A stretch of 64,000 bases of DNA from Salinibacter grassmerensis (lineage in GTDB: Bacteria; Bacteroidota; Rhodothermia; Rhodothermales; Salinibacteraceae), in contig NZ_CAMTTF010000002.1 of the NCBI RefSeq assembly GCF_947077765.1, positions 1-64,000 of the forward strand, read 5' to 3'. The position numbers and the translations under genes were made by a program. Each line of letters opens with the position of its first letter. Position 1 is the first letter of the stretch. Below are positions 1 through 17,925 of this stretch, piece after piece. Under the pieces are notes generated by a model. That model did not search any database. It was given only the letters and a program-made list of their open reading frames with translations, and had not been told where the DNA came from.

Positions 1-228
1 GAGTCGATCTCCGGCGTGGCGGACAGCGTGTCGGACTCGACGAACCAGTTGGCAGAGATGGCCGACGACATGTCCCGCCAGGCCGAAGACCTGGGCGATC
101 TCATCGAGCAGTTCGATGTCTCGGCGGCCGGGAAGGGCGCCCGGGCGCGGCAGGGCGACGCGGCGCCGGAGCCGACCCCGAACGTGTCGGCGTCCGGCTC
201 CAACGGGGCGGCGGTAGGGGCCGCCTAG
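1..228 (+). CDS. Methyl-accepting chemotaxis protein, C-terminal end (5' truncated by window)
   Basis: The reading frame is open from the first base to a TAG at 226-228, so this is the last 75 residues of a longer protein. It begins ESISGVADSVSDSTNQLAEM, which matches the final helix of an MCP signalling coiled coil (compare the end of the complete chemoreceptor at 1074-3032). A disordered Ala/Pro/Ser tail follows. MCPs transmit ligand signals to CheA/CheW at the membrane. The short tail ends in GAAVGAA and has no NWETF-type CheR-binding pentapeptide. It lies directly upstream of another motility gene. Identity is inferred from the heptad helix and context only. Confidence 0.7.
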   Translation, partial: ESISGVADSVSDSTNQLAEMADDMSRQAEDLGDLIEQFDVSAAGKGARARQGDAAPEPTPNVSASGSNGAAVGAA

Positions 229-313
229 CCGCGGGGCACGCACGCTGTCTTTGGGAGCCATTCAACCCTGACGGTCATTCCCGAACGGTGGGAGAAAGAA
301 GAGGACTGGACAC

Positions 314-340
314 TTAAGGTCCGCTCCGGCGTGCCGATAA
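314..340 (+). promoter_or_regulatory. Sigma-28 (FliA)-type promoter
   Basis: TTAA at 314-317, a 15-bp spacer, then GCCGATAA at 333-340. The -10 element is a perfect match to the enterobacterial FliA consensus (TAAA-N15-GCCGATAA), the -35 matches 3 of 4, and the spacing is exact. Transcription should begin near 347. That makes the ATG at 382 the likely start of the downstream gene and excludes the in-frame GTG at 331 and ATG at 343. fliA itself lies at 16033-16779. Confidence 0.7.
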
Positions 341-381
341 TCATGGGTGCGCCGGATTTCTCTTTCCCGTCGTCTCGCATC

Positions 382-1026
382 ATGCAGCGCCCTGCTTCCG
401 ACATCTGGACGACCCTCCCAGTGGGATGGATTGCTGTGATCCTCTGGGCGGCGGCGGTCGGGAGCGGATTCGTGCTGTTGACGAGCTACCAGAACGCGCC
501 CGGGACGCCCGCCCAGCCCCCTTCCGAATGGCCGGCTGAGAGCCGCATCGAGCTGGCTGATCGAGGGGCGACGCTGCTCGTATTCGTCCATCCGCACTGT
601 CCGTGCACCGACGCGACGATGGAGGAGCTGGCGCGCCTCATGCGCCATGTGCGGGACACCGTGCGGGCTCATGCCGTCTTTTTGCGGCCGGAGCAGGTCG
701 AGCCGGGCTGGGTAACGACGTCCCTCTGGCGCCGGGCCGAGTCGGTAACCGGCGTTCGTCCGCGCCGGGACCCCGAAGGACGTGAGACCGACCGGTTTGG
801 GGTGGAGACGTCGGGCCAGGTGTTGCTCTACGGGCCCGATGGCGCGCTCCGGTTTCAGGGCGGCATCACGGCGGGCCGAGGACACGAAGGCGACAATGCG
901 GGACGTGCTGCCCTCCGGGCCCTCCTCACGGGCGACCGGCCGGCCGAGACCGAGACGTTTGTTTTCGGCTGTTCGATGCACGAAGACGGAACGACCGGAT
1001 GCATCGGAGGGGTGTGCCTCCGGTGA
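382..1026 (+). CDS. RedB-like membrane-anchored thioredoxin-fold protein
   Basis: A 214-residue protein with one N-terminal membrane anchor (about residues 10-32) followed by a domain facing outward. It carries a Cys pair in FVHPHCPCTDA, the segments LWRRAESVTGV and ETSGQVLLYGPDG, GGITAGRGHEGDN, and a late Cys in FGCSM. This combination recalls proteins annotated RedB, a family of uncertain function with a thioredoxin-like fold. The start at ATG 382 is chosen because the upstream candidates overlap the sigma-28 promoter at 314-340. A chemoreceptor begins 47 bp downstream and is probably co-transcribed. A redox or metal-linked role in motility or taxis is an inference from the promoter and neighbour, not from the family. 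Confidence 0.65.
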   Translation: MQRPASDIWTTLPVGWIAVILWAAAVGSGFVLLTSYQNAPGTPAQPPSEWPAESRIELADRGATLLVFVHPHCPCTDATMEELARLMRHVRDTVRAHAVFLRPEQVEPGWVTTSLWRRAESVTGVRPRRDPEGRETDRFGVETSGQVLLYGPDGALRFQGGITAGRGHEGDNAGRAALRALLTGDRPAETETFVFGCSMHEDGTTGCIGGVCLR

Positions 1027-1073
1027 GGATCCGTTCCGCCACCGTCTCATGAACGCGTAGCGCTCTATCTGCC

Positions 1074-3032
1074 ATGCCTGCCTCTACAACAGTATCTTCG
1101 GAAGCGCCCAATTCGCCGCCCAGCGACGCTGAGGCGTCGGCCGAGACGGTCGCGCCGGATGAGGTCCACCGTCGCTTCATGGACTACGTGACGGAAAACT
1201 ACCGCAACGTCGATTTCCGGTTCGCGGTGTTGATGACGGTGCAGTGGGCCGCGGCGATCGTTGCTGCTGTCCTCATCTCCCCGAACACATGGGCCGGGAC
1301 CGAGAGCACGATGCACGTGCACGTCTACGCGGCCATCCTGCTGGGGGGGCTCATCAGTGCCCCACCGGCCATCCTGGCGTGGGCGCGGCCGGGGACGACC
1401 CTCACCCGCCACCTCATTGCCGGGGCTCAGCTGCTGATGTCGGGGCTGCTCATTCACCTGTCGGGCGGACGCATTGAGACGCACTTTCACATTTTTGCGT
1501 CGCTGGCCTTCCTCTCGTTGTACCACGACTGGCGGGTGCTCTTTACCGGTGCGGCGGTGACGGGGGTGGATCACGTCGCCCGGGGCATCATCTGGCCGGA
1601 GTCGATCTACGGCGTGCTCACGGCCAGTCCGTGGCGCACCGTCGAGCATGTTGCCTGGGTCGTGTTTTCTGTTTCCTTCCTGGCCGTGGGGTGTGTACAG
1701 GCCGTGCGGATGTACCGCCGGCGGGCGAAGCAGGAGGCCGAGGCGGCACAGAAAAACGACCGGCTGGACGCCCTTCTCCAAGACGTCAAGGCGGCCAAGA
1801 CCGAGGCGGAGGAGAAGCGCGAACAGGCCGACCGGCTGGCCGACCAGTCGCGCGTCGTGCGGGACTACCTGGAGGGGGAGGTGGAGCGCATGCTCGGGGC
1901 GATGAATCGCCTGTCGGAGGGGGACCTGACGGTTGAGTTTGAGCCGAGCCGCGTTGAGGACACCCTCAACGAGGACCTCAGCGAAACGGAGGCCCTCGTG
2001 GACCGGCTCGGCGACGGGTTTAACCAGACGGTGGAGCAGATGCGTGAGACGCTCACGGAGGTCGATGCCGCCGTGAGTGAGACGGCCACGGCCACGCGGC
2101 AGGTCGGAGCGGTCACGGACCAGTTGGCCGACGGCGCCGATCGGCAGCACGCCCAGGCCGACGAGGCGGCCACCGCGGTGGAGGAGATGAGTCGGACCAT
2201 CTCGTCGAATGCCGGCAGCGCCACCCGGGCGGCCGAGGCGGCTCAGCAAAACGGGCAGCAGGCCGAGACCGGCGCGGAGGTGGTCGGGGAGGCCGTGGAG
2301 AAAATGCACGAGATTGCCGATACGGTCCAGGACTCGGCCCAGACGGTCAAGGAGTTGGGAGCGTCCAGCGAAGAGATTGAGGAGGCCGTGTCCATCATCA
2401 ACGACATCGCCGACCAGACGAACCTGCTGGCCCTCAACGCGGCCATCGAGGCGGCCCGGACCGGCGAAGAGGGACACGGCTTTGCGGTCGTGGCCGAGGA
2501 GGTCCGTGAACTGGCCGAGCGCACCGCCGAGGCGACCGACGACATTGCCGAGATGGTCGGTGAGATCCGCGACAAAGCGGACGAGGCGGTGTCGGCCATG
2601 CAGCAGGGAGAGGAGCAGGTGCAGGACGGCATGGCCCTCGCCGACGAAGCGGGGAAGGCTCTCGACAAGATCGTCGACGGGACGCAGGAGGCGGCCGACA
2701 CTGTCAGTGAGATTGCATCGGCCACCGAAGAGCAGTCGGCCACCAGCGAACAGATCGCGAAGAGCGTACAGGGAATTTCGGAGGTATCGAGGGAGGCGGT
2801 CACGGGCATCCAGCAGATTGCAGATACCGTGGAGGACATGGAGGCGCGGACCGACCGCCTCAGGCGACTGGTCGGCCACTTTGCGCTCGAAGAGGCGCAG
2901 GCAGCGGAGCAGCGTCCAGGGGCGGTAGCGGCCCCGGACGATGCTCCACGTGGCCCGTCGACGCAGTCGCTGGATCAGGCCGAGAACCTGCCGTCGGACC
3001 CGTCGGCACTGGGAGACGGAGCGCCCGACTAA
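1074..3032 (+). CDS. Methyl-accepting chemotaxis protein with histidine-rich multi-TM sensor region
   Basis: A 652-residue chemoreceptor. Residues about 40-215 form five or six hydrophobic segments with many histidines ([33 protein letters not shown]), in place of the usual periplasmic ligand domain. A HAMP-like helical linker follows, then a long MCP signalling coiled coil. The hairpin tip is near residues 450-490, with the canonical core [20 protein letters not shown] and [10 protein letters not shown]. The C-terminus is a disordered acidic/proline tail. It should signal to CheA/CheW at the inner membrane. The sensor region resembles uncharacterised membrane sensors on other MCPs, kinases and cyclases. 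The ligand is unknown; the histidines suggest metal or haem, as inference. It lies between the RedB-like gene and motA. Confidence 0.92.
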
Positions 3033-3146
3033 GGAGACTCGCACGCGGGGAGAGAGACAGAGCGGAAGTCGTGTGGGCGGCACGATTTTCCGTGGTGGCG
3101 CCCTGGGTTTTTTCCGGGCCGTCGTGTTTTCACCTTGTTATCCTGA

Positions 3147-3980
3147 ATGGACGTAACCATGAGGAAATCGACCTCGATTGGCCTGATCAGTGGCTTTGCC
3201 CTCATCACCGGGGCCATCCTGCTGGGCAACACGTGGGGGAAGTTTTTCGACCCGGCCTCGCTGCTGATGGTGGTTGGGGGCACGGCGGCGGCCGTGGTGG
3301 TTAATTACTCCTTCGAGGACCTGAAGCGCGTGATCGAGATGACGCAGGACATCTTCACGTTCGACCCTCCATCGTTCCAGAGTCGCCTCGACCAGATTAC
3401 CAACATGGCCCGCACCGCCCGCCGGGAAGGGGTGCTTGCCCTCGACCGACACATCGACGACGTCGACGATGACCTTCTGCAGTTTGGGCTCGAAATGGCC
3501 GTCGACGGGATGGGGGAGGACGAGATTGCCGAGATGCTCGACCAGCGGATCGCGGAGATGAAGAGCAAGCGCCAAGTCGTGGCGGACTTCTTTACCCAGG
3601 CGGGGACCTACGCCCCGGCGTTCGGCATGATTGGCACCCTCATCGGGCTCATTCAGATGCTGAACAACCTCAGCGACCCGAGCAAGATCGGTGCGGGCAT
3701 GGCGACGGCCCTGGTGACCACCTTCTACGGGGCGCTGCTGGCCAACTTGGCGTTTCTCCCGCTGGGCGACCGGGCGCGAAAGCAGAACGAGCTCCGGGGA
3801 AAGGCCCGCTATATTACACGGGAGGGTATCCTCGCCATCGCCCGGGGGGACAGCCCGCGCATGATTGAGCAACGCCTCGGCTTCCTCGCAGAAGGAGAGG
3901 GGGAAGAAGAGCCGGAGGCTGCGGGGGCGGAGTCGACGGAAGACGCCACCGACGCCCAGCCCGCTACGGCCGCGGCATAG
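3147..3980 (+). CDS. motA: Flagellar motor stator protein MotA
   Basis: A 277-residue inner-membrane stator subunit that, with MotB, conducts ions to drive flagellar rotation. An N-terminal TM pair is visible (GLISGFALITGAILLG; ASLLMVVGGTAAAVVVN), then a cytoplasmic domain, then the conserved PAFGMIGTLIGLI segment (about residue 155) and the last TM. The charged C-terminal tail ends in Ala/Thr-rich acidic sequence. The start could also be ATG 3159 (MRKSTS). It is followed at 25 bp by motB. Whether H+ or Na+ is used cannot be read off directly; a halophile could use Na+. Confidence 0.93.
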   Translation: MDVTMRKSTSIGLISGFALITGAILLGNTWGKFFDPASLLMVVGGTAAAVVVNYSFEDLKRVIEMTQDIFTFDPPSFQSRLDQITNMARTARREGVLALDRHIDDVDDDLLQFGLEMAVDGMGEDEIAEMLDQRIAEMKSKRQVVADFFTQAGTYAPAFGMIGTLIGLIQMLNNLSDPSKIGAGMATALVTTFYGALLANLAFLPLGDRARKQNELRGKARYITREGILAIARGDSPRMIEQRLGFLAEGEGEEEPEAAGAESTEDATDAQPATAAA

Positions 3981-4004
3981 TCCCATCACTTGTTCTACAC
4001 CCTT

Positions 4005-4775
4005 ATGAGCAGCAACCAAGTGGGTCCCGATGCCGACGAGGACGACGGCGACGACATGCCGACGGCGCCGTTCTGGATGACGACCTACGGCGACATCATG
4101 ACGCTGCTCGTCACCTTCTTCGTCCTCCTGATTTCCATGTCGGAGATTCGGATGAAGAAGTTCCGGGACGCGATCAGCAACTTTCAGCGGCAGCCCGGCA
4201 TGTTTTCCGGGAGCAAGTCCGTCGTGCCCGCCGACTACTCGTCGGGCTCCAGTCAGTCTCGGGCGCGAAAGCGGGCCGAGCAGTACGAGGAGTTCCTCAA
4301 AAGGATTGAGGAGCGCGGGCTCGGCGACAAGATCCAGGCGGACCTGAAGAAGGAGGGCATCCACGTTGTCATCGCCGACTCGTTGATGTTTCGCACCGGA
4401 CAGGCACGTCTCCTCGAGCCTTCTCAGACAGTGTTGCGCGAGCTGGCGAATCTGCTCAGCCGGGACGTCGGGTCGGTGGTCGTAGAGGGGCATACTGACA
4501 ACCGCCCAATCGAGACCCGAAGATTCCCGTCGAACTGGGAGCTGTCGACCGCCCGGGCCGCGTCGTCGGTACGCTTTCTGCAGAATACGGCCCCTGAGTA
4601 CGACTCCTCGCGCTTCAAGGCCGTGGGGCACGCCTCCACGGATCCGCGTGCCTCCAACAAGACGGACGAAGGGCGGGCCCGAAATCGTCGTGTAGAAATT
4701 ATGTTCAACTGGCGCTCATGGAACAACAACAAGACGACATCGACCCGTCCGGAGTCGACGGCGACGGGGCCGTGA
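4005..4775 (+). CDS. motB: Flagellar motor stator protein MotB
   Basis: A 256-residue protein with an acidic cytoplasmic N-terminus and a single TM containing the ion-carrying aspartate (TYGD at residue 30, then IMTLLVTFFVLL). A plug/linker region follows, then a C-terminal OmpA-like peptidoglycan-binding domain with VVEGHTDNRPI, NWELSTARA and ARNRRVEIMF. It anchors the stator to the cell wall. ATG 4005 is preferred over an upstream TTG at 3990. The 3' end overlaps the start region of fliL. Confidence 0.93.
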   Translation: MSSNQVGPDADEDDGDDMPTAPFWMTTYGDIMTLLVTFFVLLISMSEIRMKKFRDAISNFQRQPGMFSGSKSVVPADYSSGSSQSRARKRAEQYEEFLKRIEERGLGDKIQADLKKEGIHVVIADSLMFRTGQARLLEPSQTVLRELANLLSRDVGSVVVEGHTDNRPIETRRFPSNWELSTARAASSVRFLQNTAPEYDSSRFKAVGHASTDPRASNKTDEGRARNRRVEIMFNWRSWNNNKTTSTRPESTATGP

Positions 4776-5329
4776 CGGAGAGTGAAGAGCCGCTCGTCAA
4801 ACGGCATTTTCTCCTGCTTCTATCCCTGGCGCTTGGCGTGGCGGGCGTGGCCGGGGTAGGGGTGACGTACGCGCAGTACGACCGGGTCGGAGAGACGATT
4901 CAGTCGATCCCGTACGTCGGGCAGATTGCCCAGAATCCCGGGAAGGTCCCGTATGCCAATCAGATTGCGGGGATGATTCCCTTTGTGGGGGGCGGCGACT
5001 CCGGTGAGGATGGCGAGTCCAACAAGGTCGGCTCTCTGTCGAAGATGGAGGGGCTCGTGGTCAATCCCGCAGGCTCCCGGGGCAACCGGTATCTGGCCGT
5101 CAGTGTCGCCTTCGAGATGGGGGCGCCCACGGTGAAGAAGGAGATGAAGAAAAAGAAGGTCATCGTCAAAGACGCCGTGCTGCGGCTCCTGTCGGAGCAG
5201 ACGGTCGAAGAACTCTCCAATCCCAACCGACGCGACAGCCTGAAAGCATCCCTGCGCAACGAGGCGAACGGAATCCTCAGCAAGGGAGAGGTGGATCGGC
5301 TATACTTTACGGAATTCGTTTTGCAGTGA
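4718..5329 (+). CDS. fliL: FliL-like flagellar basal body protein
   Basis: A 203-residue single-pass membrane protein (TM about residues 29-50: FLLLLSLALGVAGVAGVG). Its C-terminal domain has the FliL pattern: LVVNPAGSRGNRYLAVSVAFEM, then LRLLSEQTVEEL, then ILSKGEVDRLYFTEFVLQ at the end. FliL associates with the stator and helps torque under load. Two starts are possible. ATG 4718 overlaps motB by 58 bp. GTG 4772 forms a GTGA overlap with the motB stop at 4773-4775, the usual translational coupling arrangement. The linker after the TM is longer than usual. Confidence 0.85.
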   Translation: MEQQQDDIDPSGVDGDGAVTESEEPLVKRHFLLLLSLALGVAGVAGVGVTYAQYDRVGETIQSIPYVGQIAQNPGKVPYANQIAGMIPFVGGGDSGEDGESNKVGSLSKMEGLVVNPAGSRGNRYLAVSVAFEMGAPTVKKEMKKKKVIVKDAVLRLLSEQTVEELSNPNRRDSLKASLRNEANGILSKGEVDRLYFTEFVLQ

Positions 5330-5388
5330 CCAGGACCCGTGGGCGCGGGGACGTTCACTGATCTTCTCGACGGCATCGCAGCACTGGC

Positions 5389-6507
5389 ATGTCGAAGCCC
5401 CTTAGTCAGGAGGAAATTGACGTCCTTCTCGGCGACGCCGAGGCGGAAGAACAGGACGAGCCTACCGGAAAAGCAGGCGACGAGCCAGACGCGCAGGCGG
5501 AGAAGGAAGCGCAGGCCCAGCCGTACAATTTCAAGCGGCCGCGCCTGTTCTCGCAGACACAGAAGCGCATCCTGAACCAGGTGCACGAGTCGTTCGCCCG
5601 CGACCTCTCGGTGTACCTGTCCGCCCAGCTCCGCACCATCGTCGACATTTCGCTGACGGCCGTCGACCAGGTGCTCTACTCGGAGTTCGTGATGTCGAGT
5701 GCTCCGCCCTCGGCCCTGTACGTTCTGCACGAGAACGAGCTCGAATACCGGTCGATTTTCGAAATCGACCCGCGGCTGGTGGTGTACACCATCGAAAAGC
5801 TCATGGGGGGCGACGGGCACCTAATGGACGATTCCCGCGAGGTGTCTCCGATCGAGCAGCGTATCATGAGCCGGGTGATGAAGCGGGCATACCGGAAGCT
5901 GGAAGAATCCTGGGAAAAGGCCTACGAGCTGTCGGTCGAGGAGGTCGCGTTCGAGTCGAACGCCGAATTTGTGCAGATCATCCCGGCGGCCGAGCCGGCG
6001 CTCGTGGCCTCGTTCGACGTGCGCGTCTACGACGAGCCGTCGTTTATCAACATCTGCTACCCGTACCTCATGCTGGAGCAGATGCTGGGGCGCGCCGGCA
6101 TGGAGCAGTGGATTTCCAGCTCCACGACGGCTGTCGAGCCTGAGGTGCGGGACCGGTACGAGGACACCCTGCGAGAGACGGAGGTGAACCTGAGTGCCGA
6201 GCTGGGGCGCACCGTCCTGCCCGTGACCGAGCTGGCCCAGCTGCAGGAGGGCGACGTCATTCCCCTCGACCGCGAGACCGACGATCCCATTAAGGTATTT
6301 GTGAACGGCGAGCAGAAGTTTGAGGCCGTGCCGGGCCGTTCGGGACGGCAGCGTGCCCTACGGATTACGGCGGCGGAATCCCCTGAGAACGTCGAGTTCG
6401 ATTCTCTGACCCCTTCCCCTGATCATGAACCAGAACACGCTCGAGACGCACATACAAACGGCACTAACGGCGCTGGAAGCACTGCTGGAGCAGCTGAGCG
6501 GGAATGA
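5389..6507 (+). CDS. fliM: Flagellar motor switch protein FliM
   Basis: A 372-residue C-ring protein. The N-terminus MSKPLSQEEIDVLLG is the CheY-P-binding peptide typical of FliM. The middle CheC-like domain holds FKRPRLFSQTQ, QVHESFARDLS and a MGGDG loop in place of the usual GGxG motif. The C-terminal SpoA domain includes LGRTVLPVTELAQLQEGDVIPLDR. An acidic linker typical of this genome follows the N-terminal peptide, and there is a disordered C-terminal tail. It sets the direction of rotation. The end overlaps fliN by 83 bp. Confidence 0.95.
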   Translation: MSKPLSQEEIDVLLGDAEAEEQDEPTGKAGDEPDAQAEKEAQAQPYNFKRPRLFSQTQKRILNQVHESFARDLSVYLSAQLRTIVDISLTAVDQVLYSEFVMSSAPPSALYVLHENELEYRSIFEIDPRLVVYTIEKLMGGDGHLMDDSREVSPIEQRIMSRVMKRAYRKLEESWEKAYELSVEEVAFESNAEFVQIIPAAEPALVASFDVRVYDEPSFINICYPYLMLEQMLGRAGMEQWISSSTTAVEPEVRDRYEDTLRETEVNLSAELGRTVLPVTELAQLQEGDVIPLDRETDDPIKVFVNGEQKFEAVPGRSGRQRALRITAAESPENVEFDSLTPSPDHEPEHARDAHTNGTNGAGSTAGAAERE

Positions 6508-16032: not shown

Positions 16033-16779
16033 ATGTCCCGTGACCTACAGCCCCTTGTCGAACAGTACCTCGACGACCCCACCCCGTCGAACCGAGAGGC
16101 CGTCGTAATGGCGGCGCTCCCCCTCGTGCGCTCCATCATCGGCAAGATTAGTGTGCCCGATCACCTGCTTGCCTCGCATGAGGACCTAGAGAGCGTCGGG
16201 ATTGTCGGGCTTCTTGAGGCCCTCGACAACTACGACCCGGAGCAGGCCCAGTTTGCGACCCACGCGTACCGGCGGGTCCGGGGCAACATCATCGACTACC
16301 TCCGCTCGATCGATGTGCTCTCGCGGGAGAAGCGCAAGAAGATGGGCGCGGTGCAGGAGGCGCTCTCCTCGCTCCGGCAGATGCTGGGGGAGGAGCCGTC
16401 GGACGAGGATGTATCCGACTACATGGGAATGTCCGTGGAGGAGTATCACGACCTCCTCCGGGACGCGCAGTGCCGTTTCTCCCTCTCGCTCTCGCGGCCC
16501 AGCGAGGACGACGACCATACGATGCTCGACGTGCTCCCAAGCGACGACGGGACGGAGGGGTTCGAGCGGTTCGAAAAGGCCTCTACGCAGAAGCACCTCG
16601 AGGACCTCATCCAGACCCTTCCGGAGCGCCAACAGACGATTCTGGGCCTGTACTACACGGAAGACCTGACCCTGCAAGAAATTGGGGAGGTGCTCGACCT
16701 CAGCGCCGCCCGCATCTCGCAGCTCCTCGGGAAGATTCAGCTCACCCTGCAGGCGAAGTTTGAAGAGCACGCGCACTGA
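16033..16779 (+). CDS. fliA: Flagellar RNA polymerase sigma factor FliA (sigma-28)
   Basis: A 248-residue FliA/WhiG-type sigma factor. Region 2 includes LPLVRSIIGKISVPDHL, DLESVGIVGLLEALDNYDPE and FATHAYRRVRGNIIDYLRS. Region 3 has LSSLRQMLGEEPSDEDVSDY. Region 4 ends with ERQQTILGLYYTEDLTLQEI and SAARISQLLGKI. It should direct transcription of late flagellar and chemotaxis genes. Two fitting promoters are present in this window (314-340 and 17899-17925). No flgM is visible next to it. A hairpin follows the stop codon. Confidence 0.96.
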   Translation: MSRDLQPLVEQYLDDPTPSNREAVVMAALPLVRSIIGKISVPDHLLASHEDLESVGIVGLLEALDNYDPEQAQFATHAYRRVRGNIIDYLRSIDVLSREKRKKMGAVQEALSSLRQMLGEEPSDEDVSDYMGMSVEEYHDLLRDAQCRFSLSLSRPSEDDDHTMLDVLPSDDGTEGFERFEKASTQKHLEDLIQTLPERQQTILGLYYTEDLTLQEIGEVLDLSAARISQLLGKIQLTLQAKFEEHAH

Positions 16780-16943: not shown

Positions 16944-17858
16944 TTAGAAGTGGCCCACCTCCGAGGCATATGTCGATGCGTCCTGGGCGACCGTCATCAT
17001 GAGATCGTCGACCCTCGACGCAGAAGAGTCCTCAGAGGTCCCCAGCGACGCGGCGAAGTCTTCGGCGAGGTCCCGGCGGGCAAGGTCGCCCCCGTTCCGG
17101 ATGGACACCCCAAGCATCTTGCTGGCCGACTCCGGCTCGTCATCCGGGTTGGCGGCGATCTGGAGCACCGAGCAAACCCGCTCCGGCAGTTCCCAGTGGT
17201 CGGCTGCCTGCGGGGCGAGGGTGCGGTAGTTCTCGCCGAAGGCGTGGGCCTCGGCCTCGGTGTCGGGAAGGGGCATCGTACCCGCCTCGGCCAGCGTTGC
17301 GTATCGGTCCGGCTGGACGTGGAGCAGGACGAGGCGCCCCATCGCGTGAATGAAACCGGCCGAGAAGGCAAGCCGGGTCCAGTCCTCCTCCACGTCCAGG
17401 GCTTTCGTAAGCCCCTGTGCGAACCGACCGGTGAAGACGGCCGAGTGGGCGATTTGGCGGAGCAGGGCGGAATGGGAGTCGAAGTGATCCCGGAGCTCCT
17501 CAACCCCCTCAATCATGACGATCGAGGAGACCTCGACGAACCCGAGGAGGCGAACCGCACGGTCGATGCTCTCGACCTCCCGGCGGAGGCCGTGGTACGG
17601 GGAGTTGACGCGCCGGAGCACGTTGAGGGAGACGGACGGATCGCGTTCCACGATGTCAATGAGTGGACCAGGGTCCGTCTGGCCAGAGGCGATGAATTCT
17701 TCCACCTTCGAAATGGTGGACGGGAGGGTCGGAAACGTGAGCGTAAGGCCCTGTTTTTGCACGGACTGAGTGCGGAATTGATGAACCGACTGGGCGGAAA
17801 GGAGCCTGTGGTGCCCATCCAGATCAGCCGCCGGCATGAGCGCGGATGGCGCCGGCAT
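16944..17858 (-). CDS. HDOD-domain signalling protein
   Basis: A 304-residue protein with an HDOD domain (about residues 40-240). Features are LTFPTLPSTISKVEEFIASG, LIDIVERDPSVSLNVLRRVN, SPYHG, IDRAVRLLGFVEVSSIVMIE, FIHAMGRLVLLHVQPD and HWELPERVCSVLQ. HDOD proteins are catalytically inactive relatives of HD phosphohydrolases, often tied to chemotaxis, motility and second-messenger signalling. The gene faces the fliA end of the flagellar operon and has its own sigma-28-like promoter at 17899-17925. That supports membership of the motility regulon. An AAAGGAG ribosome-binding-like sequence lies about 28 bp before the chosen ATG, so the exact start is uncertain. Confidence 0.88.
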   Translation of the reverse strand: MPAPSALMPAADLDGHHRLLSAQSVHQFRTQSVQKQGLTLTFPTLPSTISKVEEFIASGQTDPGPLIDIVERDPSVSLNVLRRVNSPYHGLRREVESIDRAVRLLGFVEVSSIVMIEGVEELRDHFDSHSALLRQIAHSAVFTGRFAQGLTKALDVEEDWTRLAFSAGFIHAMGRLVLLHVQPDRYATLAEAGTMPLPDTEAEAHAFGENYRTLAPQAADHWELPERVCSVLQIAANPDDEPESASKMLGVSIRNGGDLARRDLAEDFAASLGTSEDSSASRVDDLMMTVAQDASTYASEVGHF

Positions 17859-17898: not shown

Positions 17899-17925
17899 TT
17901 ATCGACACGTGCCGGCCCATCTTAA
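17899..17925 (-). promoter_or_regulatory. Sigma-28 (FliA)-type promoter for HDOD gene
   Basis: Read on the minus strand: TTAA (17922-17925), a 15-bp spacer, GTCGATAA (17899-17906). Seven of eight -10 bases match GCCGATAA, and spacing and -35 are the same as in the promoter at 314-340. The predicted transcript start is near 17892, ahead of the HDOD gene starting at 17858. Confidence 0.6.

Follow-up and report, generated by a model that had tools for sequence, protein, structure and literature searches.

A FliA-type promoter, a RedB-like thiol protein and a histidine-rich chemoreceptor in Salinibacter grassmerensis: a probable redox or metal taxis unit of a widespread type

What a membrane-anchored thiol protein is doing between a flagellar-type promoter and a chemoreceptor gene is the question raised by the first kilobases of the window, a stretch of 64,000 nucleotides from Salinibacter grassmerensis (contig NZ_CAMTTF010000002.1; Table 1). 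A preliminary description had assigned the promoter to sigma-28 (FliA), called the protein RedB-like and proposed that it forms a redox or metal taxis unit with the receptor encoded downstream. The name RedB presumably reflects a link to redB in the red operon of Myxococcus. Taken as a whole, the locus is best explained as a FliA-driven operon in which RedB and the receptor domain would work together at a metal or redox site, a reading that we consider rather probable.

Table 1. Features of the window that bear on the redB-receptor locus
Feature	Positions	Strand	Remarks
Chemoreceptor gene, cut off at window start	1-228		end of contig C2 of the genome
Sigma-28 (FliA) type promoter	314-340	+	TTAA 314-317, 15 bases, −10 element 333-340
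redB-like gene, membrane-anchored thioredoxin-fold protein	382-1026	+	214 codons; start ATG 382
HPHCPC motif, residues 70-75	589-606	+	H70, P71, C73, C75 invariant in 49 aligned homologs
Cys197 codon	970-972	+	third invariant cysteine
Chemoreceptor gene	1074-3032	+	652 aa; N-terminal six-helix histidine-rich domain and MCP signaling domain
Predicted six-helix membrane input domain	1155-1703	+	about residues 28-210; from model
His81 and His83 codons (HxH)	1314-1322	+	positions going with RedB
MCPsignal domain	2235-2786	+	residues 388-571
motA	3159-3980	+	start 3147 or 3159
motB	3990-4775	+	
fliA, sigma-28 factor	16033-16779	+	above TIGR02479 cut-off

The promoter, TTAAGGTCCGCTCCGGCGTGCCGATAA, pairs an exact GCCGATAA at −10 with TTAA at −35 over a gap of 15 bases. 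The −35 element of Escherichia coli FliA is TAAA rather than TTAA, and TTAA is also found at cheW, flagellin, FliS and others in this genome. The pattern TTAA-N14..16-GCCGATAA has 2 matches in the 3.78-Mb genome, both with a gap of 15 and the second ahead of cheW, compared with 0 for the reversed pattern, and loosening it to TWAA/GCCGATAW adds no genome site. When 1 mismatch is allowed, the genome contains 21 sites (the 2 exact ones counted) versus 2 for the reversed control. Among the genes that follow these sites are those for flagellin, FliS, a PAS chemoreceptor, a HAMP chemoreceptor, a dCache protein with HAMP and a periplasmic ABC-type binding protein lying between chemoreceptors, as well as a FlgM-like ORF whose match (E 0.0025) falls short of Pfam's cut-off. 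Other sites precede an HDOD gene, a type II secretion F gene and the gene for a 390-aa protein without a Pfam match, several have no evident client gene, and 7 of the 21 lie on C11, a contig of 36.6 kb. The preliminary description had expected the motif upstream of flagellin and che genes, where it is indeed found (flagellin, FliS, cheW and MCP genes), and had named a random frequency in the coding regions of this genome as what would speak against the promoter; both genome-wide reversed-pattern counts go against a chance match.

The motif block is identical in three aligned congeners bar one spacer base, and the DNA upstream of it diverges. FliA exceeds the curated cut-off in 5 of 13 congeners, the window's genome counted (G000, the window's genome, with G002, G003, G006 and G010). 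The exact pattern occupies 18 places in 6 of the 13 genomes, namely the five with FliA and G012, whose single site lies inside an ORF; 9 of the 18 precede redB (4) or cheW (5). Within the window alone, the 2-mismatch count of 2 against 0.59 expected is not unusual, being reached by 11 of 100 shuffles, and the strength of the candidate promoter lies in its exact match, its conservation and the genes that share the motif rather than in this in-window count. On the sequence evidence, we regard 314-340 as a real FliA-type promoter, as had been proposed earlier from the perfect −10 and the 15-base gap, to which congener conservation and the fliA gene encoded in the window can be added. A chance match was ruled out by the genome-wide rarity of the motif, its conservation among congeners and the flagellar and chemotaxis genes that share it, and a scan of positions 1-6000 for a sigma-70 promoter in its stead found no sigma-70-type site. 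ATG 382 is the likely start of the redB-like gene because it is kept in all four aligned genomes, whereas the in-frame ATG at 343 is ATA or GTG in two of them; 41 bases lie between the −10 element and ATG 382, and the transcript would begin near 347.

Near fliA, a 1-mismatch FliA-like site occupies positions 17899-17925 on the minus strand, 40 bases before the HDOD-domain gene (16944-17858, minus strand). FliA-like sites recur in congeners before the 390-aa exported-looking protein without a Pfam match and before the T2SSF (pilC-like) gene (L220 and L044, L046; L226 and L034), and both are possible further FliA clients.

From this promoter, FliA-RNA polymerase would transcribe an operon of redB, chemoreceptor, motA and motB, with more flagellar genes lying downstream of motB. 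The redB-like and receptor genes are 47 bases apart, and a scan of positions 1-6000 detected no terminator-like site in the gaps from redB to motB, the one between receptor and motA included. All of the operon as far as motAB is very likely under this promoter, because in the congener G006, where redB and receptor have decayed jointly (the receptor is absent from the locus and redB is a remnant without HPHCPC), the promoter is intact ahead of motA. On its other side, 85 bases separate the promoter from the truncated chemoreceptor gene. Two candidate N-terminal halves of that gene sit at contig ends in the same genome (C11:3-1040 and C6:3-1043), so the assembly was probably interrupted at the window start by a receptor gene that is repeated; gene order in G003 and G006 suggests that C11 joins C2. 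Contig C6 also holds a decayed second redB copy (1086-1382; L022, L030, L228) with internal stops and HPHRPC in place of HPHCPC, which has its own promoter with one mismatch and is followed by a chemoreceptor of the ordinary kind that lacks the histidine domain.

The RedB-like protein is predicted (AlphaFold, pLDDT 91) to consist of one membrane helix (residues 12-37) and a thioredoxin fold, in agreement with the membrane-anchored CPC protein of the preliminary description, whose motif is HPHCPC in full. Its ORF is under purifying selection, with dN/dS values of 0.084 and 0.089 against two congeners, and the residues invariant over 49 homologs are W22, H70, P71, C73, C75, D130, S144, G145, G160, G161, T163, G170, G196 and C197. 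Structural matches up to Z 15.7 place the model in the thioredoxin fold, the best being four thioredoxin-like structures of unknown function (2cvb/2ywo, 2ywi and 3u5r; Z 15-16, 163-164 residues aligned), followed by SdbA, DsbE and ResA-like proteins at Z 11-13; Sco, ResA and CcmG-like folds also occur among the matches. The four best structures share a C-terminal Gly-Cys with RedB and differ in having a proline where RedB has an invariant Ser-Gly. This is the place of the cis-proline, taken in 49 of 49 homologs by Ser144-Gly145 as positioned by sequence alignment to 2cvb, and the same 49 have CxC instead of the CxxC of canonical thioredoxin/TlpA oxidoreductases. An identity as thiol reductase was rejected for want of CxxC and cis-proline, and one as Sco protein (SCO1/SenC) because the motif is CxC and not CxxxC. 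A passage of PMC2757866 gives CxxxC as the Sco copper motif and cites the view that the cis-proline may prevent metal binding to cysteines. No Pfam or NCBIfam model reaches its cut-off for the RedB family, and the open-licence literature yielded no account of it (subscription papers lay outside the search); the portion of PMC3018481 that deals with red genes mentions redCDEF only. The best reading of HPxCPC, Cys197 and the missing cis-proline is a periplasmic thioredoxin-fold partner that would serve the receptor at a metal or redox site.

The protein encoded next is identified as a chemoreceptor by its MCPsignal domain (E 5.8e-49, 166.7 bits, cut-off 34.6) and carries conserved histidines in its N-terminal membrane domain, which is modeled as six membrane helices with a long helix behind them. 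Since the output is cytoplasmic and the helices number six, loops 1-2, 3-4 and 5-6 would lie outside. Neither Pfam nor NCBIfam has a model for the six-helix domain, and only parts behind the membrane domain (a PAS box and MCPsignal) reached cut-offs. Foldseek alone returned nothing under E 0.1 for the receptor domain (best E 0.13), and a second structural comparison of the receptor model ranked ImcA first, adenylyl cyclase 8 second and Cya sixth.

With receptor residues 1-309 as the query, the best 80 of 176 loci span Planctomycetota, Verrucomicrobia, Myxococcota, Rhodothermota, Melainabacteria and others. Since IETHFHIF is one of the peptide patterns used to find these 80 loci, the invariance of E135-H139 is partly built in; H81, H83 and H128 lie outside the patterns. 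A RedB relative stands just upstream in 73 of these best 80 by phmmer, and by profile RedB is beside the domain in 74. Across 296 genomes of the phylum, RedB adjoins 11 of the 16 strong receptor places and all 11 strong RedB places adjoin a receptor; three further RedB-profile matches (about 45 bits) are not beside a receptor, and eight weak receptor-profile matches (49-69 bits) are without RedB. A survey of two more sets, 294 genomes from the phylum of a Pirellula MAG and 282 from that of a Myxococcales MAG, found RedB at 41 of 51 receptor places, two of which (L166 and L201) coincide with L094 and L105 in the 80-locus set. No RedB is linked to 10 of the 51 receptors in this survey or to 6 of the best 80 of 176. 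The unbiased linkage counts are those of the 80 loci by profile, the 296 genomes and the 51 places, L006-L013 and their relatives having been recruited by RedB itself.

The domain is joined to several outputs. Among the best 80 of 176 loci, 63 match a kinase C-terminus, 10 match the signaling part of the window's chemoreceptor and one has GGDEF and EAL, the rest being kinase-like (HATPase) or cut at contig ends. The preliminary description had suggested a neighborhood survey of RedB homologs beside MCP genes: RedB adjoins the six-helix receptor, and most of these receptors are histidine kinases and some are chemoreceptors. The pair with chemoreceptor output also occurs in a planctomycete MAG and in myxobacteria (L048, L092 and Corallococcus loci), so the output has either been swapped more than once or been inherited widely. 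At the level of sequence, the partnership of RedB and the six-helix histidine-rich input domain as one module is strongly supported, and the locus here is the chemoreceptor form of a widespread module, not a mere local oddity.

Individual residues of the receptor domain follow RedB to different degrees. H81 lies at the end of helix 2 that is predicted to face the periplasm; it is present in 125 of 127 RedB-linked rows of the alignment versus 5 of 17 unlinked rows, H83 in 125/127 versus 9/17 and H128 in 120/125 versus 9/19. The corresponding counts are 125/125 versus 18/19 for H137, 122/125 versus 18/19 for H139, 123/125 versus 15/19 for H167 and 124/125 versus 16/19 for H192, with gaps uncounted, one row (L212) set aside for too little upstream DNA, and the rows of L006-L013 and relatives recruited via RedB. 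Three of the 5 unlinked receptors that retain H81 come from genomes with RedB elsewhere (G334, G335 and G741). A ranking of 44 conserved positions by Fisher p is led by H81 with a margin of four orders of magnitude, and H81 keeps this place after divergent and near-duplicate unlinked rows are omitted. A tree built without columns 81, 83, 128 and 136 requires a minimum of 14 changes in RedB linkage and 9 in H81, and a Pagel-type test favors the dependent over the independent model (LR 36.5, p 2e-7, 4 df), the loss of H81 being confined to lineages without RedB. The well-supported (starred) branches provide 4 independent pairs only, about 2 in the expected direction and 0 in the opposite one, which is too few for significance. 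Part of the H81 signal is general relaxation, because R188, E135, G131, T136, P70 and D47 also loosen without RedB. A side test for RedB-coupled positions in the periplasmic half gave a one-sided p of 0.029; it used helix halves that were assigned visually on the model and is not relied on. The window's genus also has a second, orphan copy of the receptor, in the window's genome a chemoreceptor paralog (C3:134885-135586, L148) with the same six-helix domain and no RedB, which keeps H137, H139, D166, H167, E191 and H192 and has Gly, Tyr and Tyr in place of H81, H83 and H128. The earlier proposal that thiol protein and chemoreceptor make up one unit gains support from both the linkage and the covariation with His81.

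Several characterized systems resemble parts of this arrangement. RegB has a six-helix form. SenC with RegB/RegA (PrrC/PrrB in Rhodobacter) is alike in that a membrane-anchored thioredoxin-fold protein is encoded with a membrane signaling protein, there a histidine kinase; a section of PMC9147068 describes SenC as a membrane-anchored thioredoxin-fold copper-binding protein and senC as invariably cotranscribed with group 1 regA/regB. RedB differs from SenC in having CxC and not the CxxxC of Sco, plus a third conserved cysteine, and the receptor domain differs from RegB in its own histidine set and its chemoreceptor output. As a RegB-type redox kinase would have a histidine kinase output, the window protein with its MCPsignal domain is not one, and most relatives of its input domain are kinases. 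In Pseudomonas aeruginosa, according to part of PMC10904736, the iron-sensing partner IsmP controls the six-helix membrane signaling enzyme ImcA, which heads the structural matches of the receptor model (Z 10.8, 191 residues aligned, rmsd 3.8); this score lies below the tool's mark of 13 for helical bundles and may reflect a common arrangement only, so common descent is not claimed. As described there, IsmP senses iron via a CHASE4 domain, not a thioredoxin fold, and ImcA makes c-di-GMP. Adenylyl cyclase 8 (AC8; Z 9.7, 195 residues aligned) and Rv1625c/Cya (Z 6.5, 159 aligned), which also score below that mark and for which common descent is not claimed either, likewise set a six-helix domain over a long helix, and an extracellular cation site controls the cytosolic part of Cya in the account given in a passage of PMC9433096. 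Both cyclases differ from the receptor in lacking a RedB partner, in the residues concerned and in their cyclase output.

We propose that RedB and the input domain of the adjoining receptor, with its six helices, jointly make up a single sensor on the outer side of the inner membrane, to which one helix of RedB would tether a thioredoxin-fold domain that faces the periplasm. The input domain would have a core of H137, H139, D166-H167 and E191-H192, largely retained with or without linked RedB, and a RedB-linked set of H81, H83 and H128 at those ends of helices 2 and 3 that are predicted to face the periplasm. The two sets suggest a metal or cofactor site on the receptor, and H70, C73, C75 and C197 of RedB suggest metal handling or thiol exchange. 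Through these four residues, and presumably by direct contact, RedB would load or withdraw a metal, or oxidize or reduce the site; the state of the site would move helix 6 and so reach the chemotaxis kinase. Elsewhere the same pair would drive histidine kinases or a GGDEF/EAL enzyme. A Rhodothermus-like genome (L157, 3084-9094), in which the receptor is again of the chemoreceptor form and CPC is CSC, has the pair flanked by a LysR regulator and a catalase at one end and by an Mn-catalase at the other, a neighborhood that hints at peroxide or metal stress. Catalase/OxyR neighbors as a general feature were considered and set aside, phmmer with three Rhodothermus-like proteins having matched the same genomes only (L011-L013) among the ORFs of the loci collected by then. 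Judged from the fold, the conserved cysteines and histidines and this one neighborhood, the unit is probably one of redox or metal taxis.

Other readings give RedB a smaller or a larger share. RedB could be a maturation factor only, inserting a cofactor or forming a disulfide during receptor folding, with the receptor alone sensing, for example, oxygen or the state of quinone. The strict linkage and the loss of H81 would be expected of assembly no less than of sensing, RedB has structural matches with Sco, ResA and CcmG-like folds, and some receptors have no linked RedB; yet those unlinked receptors mostly retain the core histidines, which can therefore do without RedB, and we consider a role in maturation alone unlikely, if by no means far-fetched. 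That RedB carries the input itself, its CPC/C197 thiols acting as a redox or metal sensor that presses on the receptor as iron-free IsmP holds ImcA, seems to us improbable. A sensing partner with a six-helix enzyme is a known plan (PMC10904736), and ImcA is the best structural match to the receptor model, but the receptor has its own conserved histidine set, and the way its H81 follows RedB points to a site common to both and away from a receptor that is passive.

RedB might also be an ordinary thiol protein that merely hitch-hikes behind a FliA promoter that in truth exists for the receptor and motAB. The promoter in G006 persists after the decay of redB and so does serve motAB, but linkage in 74 of the best 80 of 176 loci over many phyla, the joint decay with the receptor and the covariation of H81 make this reading very hard to sustain.

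Beyond the shared metal or redox site favored for this locus, we put forward tentatively a broader proposal that could well go either way: RedB and the HxH...HFH...DH...EH six-helix domain would constitute a two-protein input module, as yet undescribed and spread across phyla, whose thioredoxin-fold partner is dedicated to loading or setting a histidine metal site on the periplasmic side of a cyclase-like six-helix sensor; in the course of evolution this module would have been connected to kinases, c-di-GMP enzymes and chemoreceptors.

The locus thus belongs to a widespread sensory module so far unnamed in two major family libraries, Pfam and NCBIfam, and it comes with a residue-level prediction, that His81 goes with RedB and that C73, C75 and C197 would act on His81. 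The six-helix membrane domains of cyclases are long-standing orphan receptors, and a partner gene and partner residues that can be read by covariation would offer a direct route to what such domains sense.
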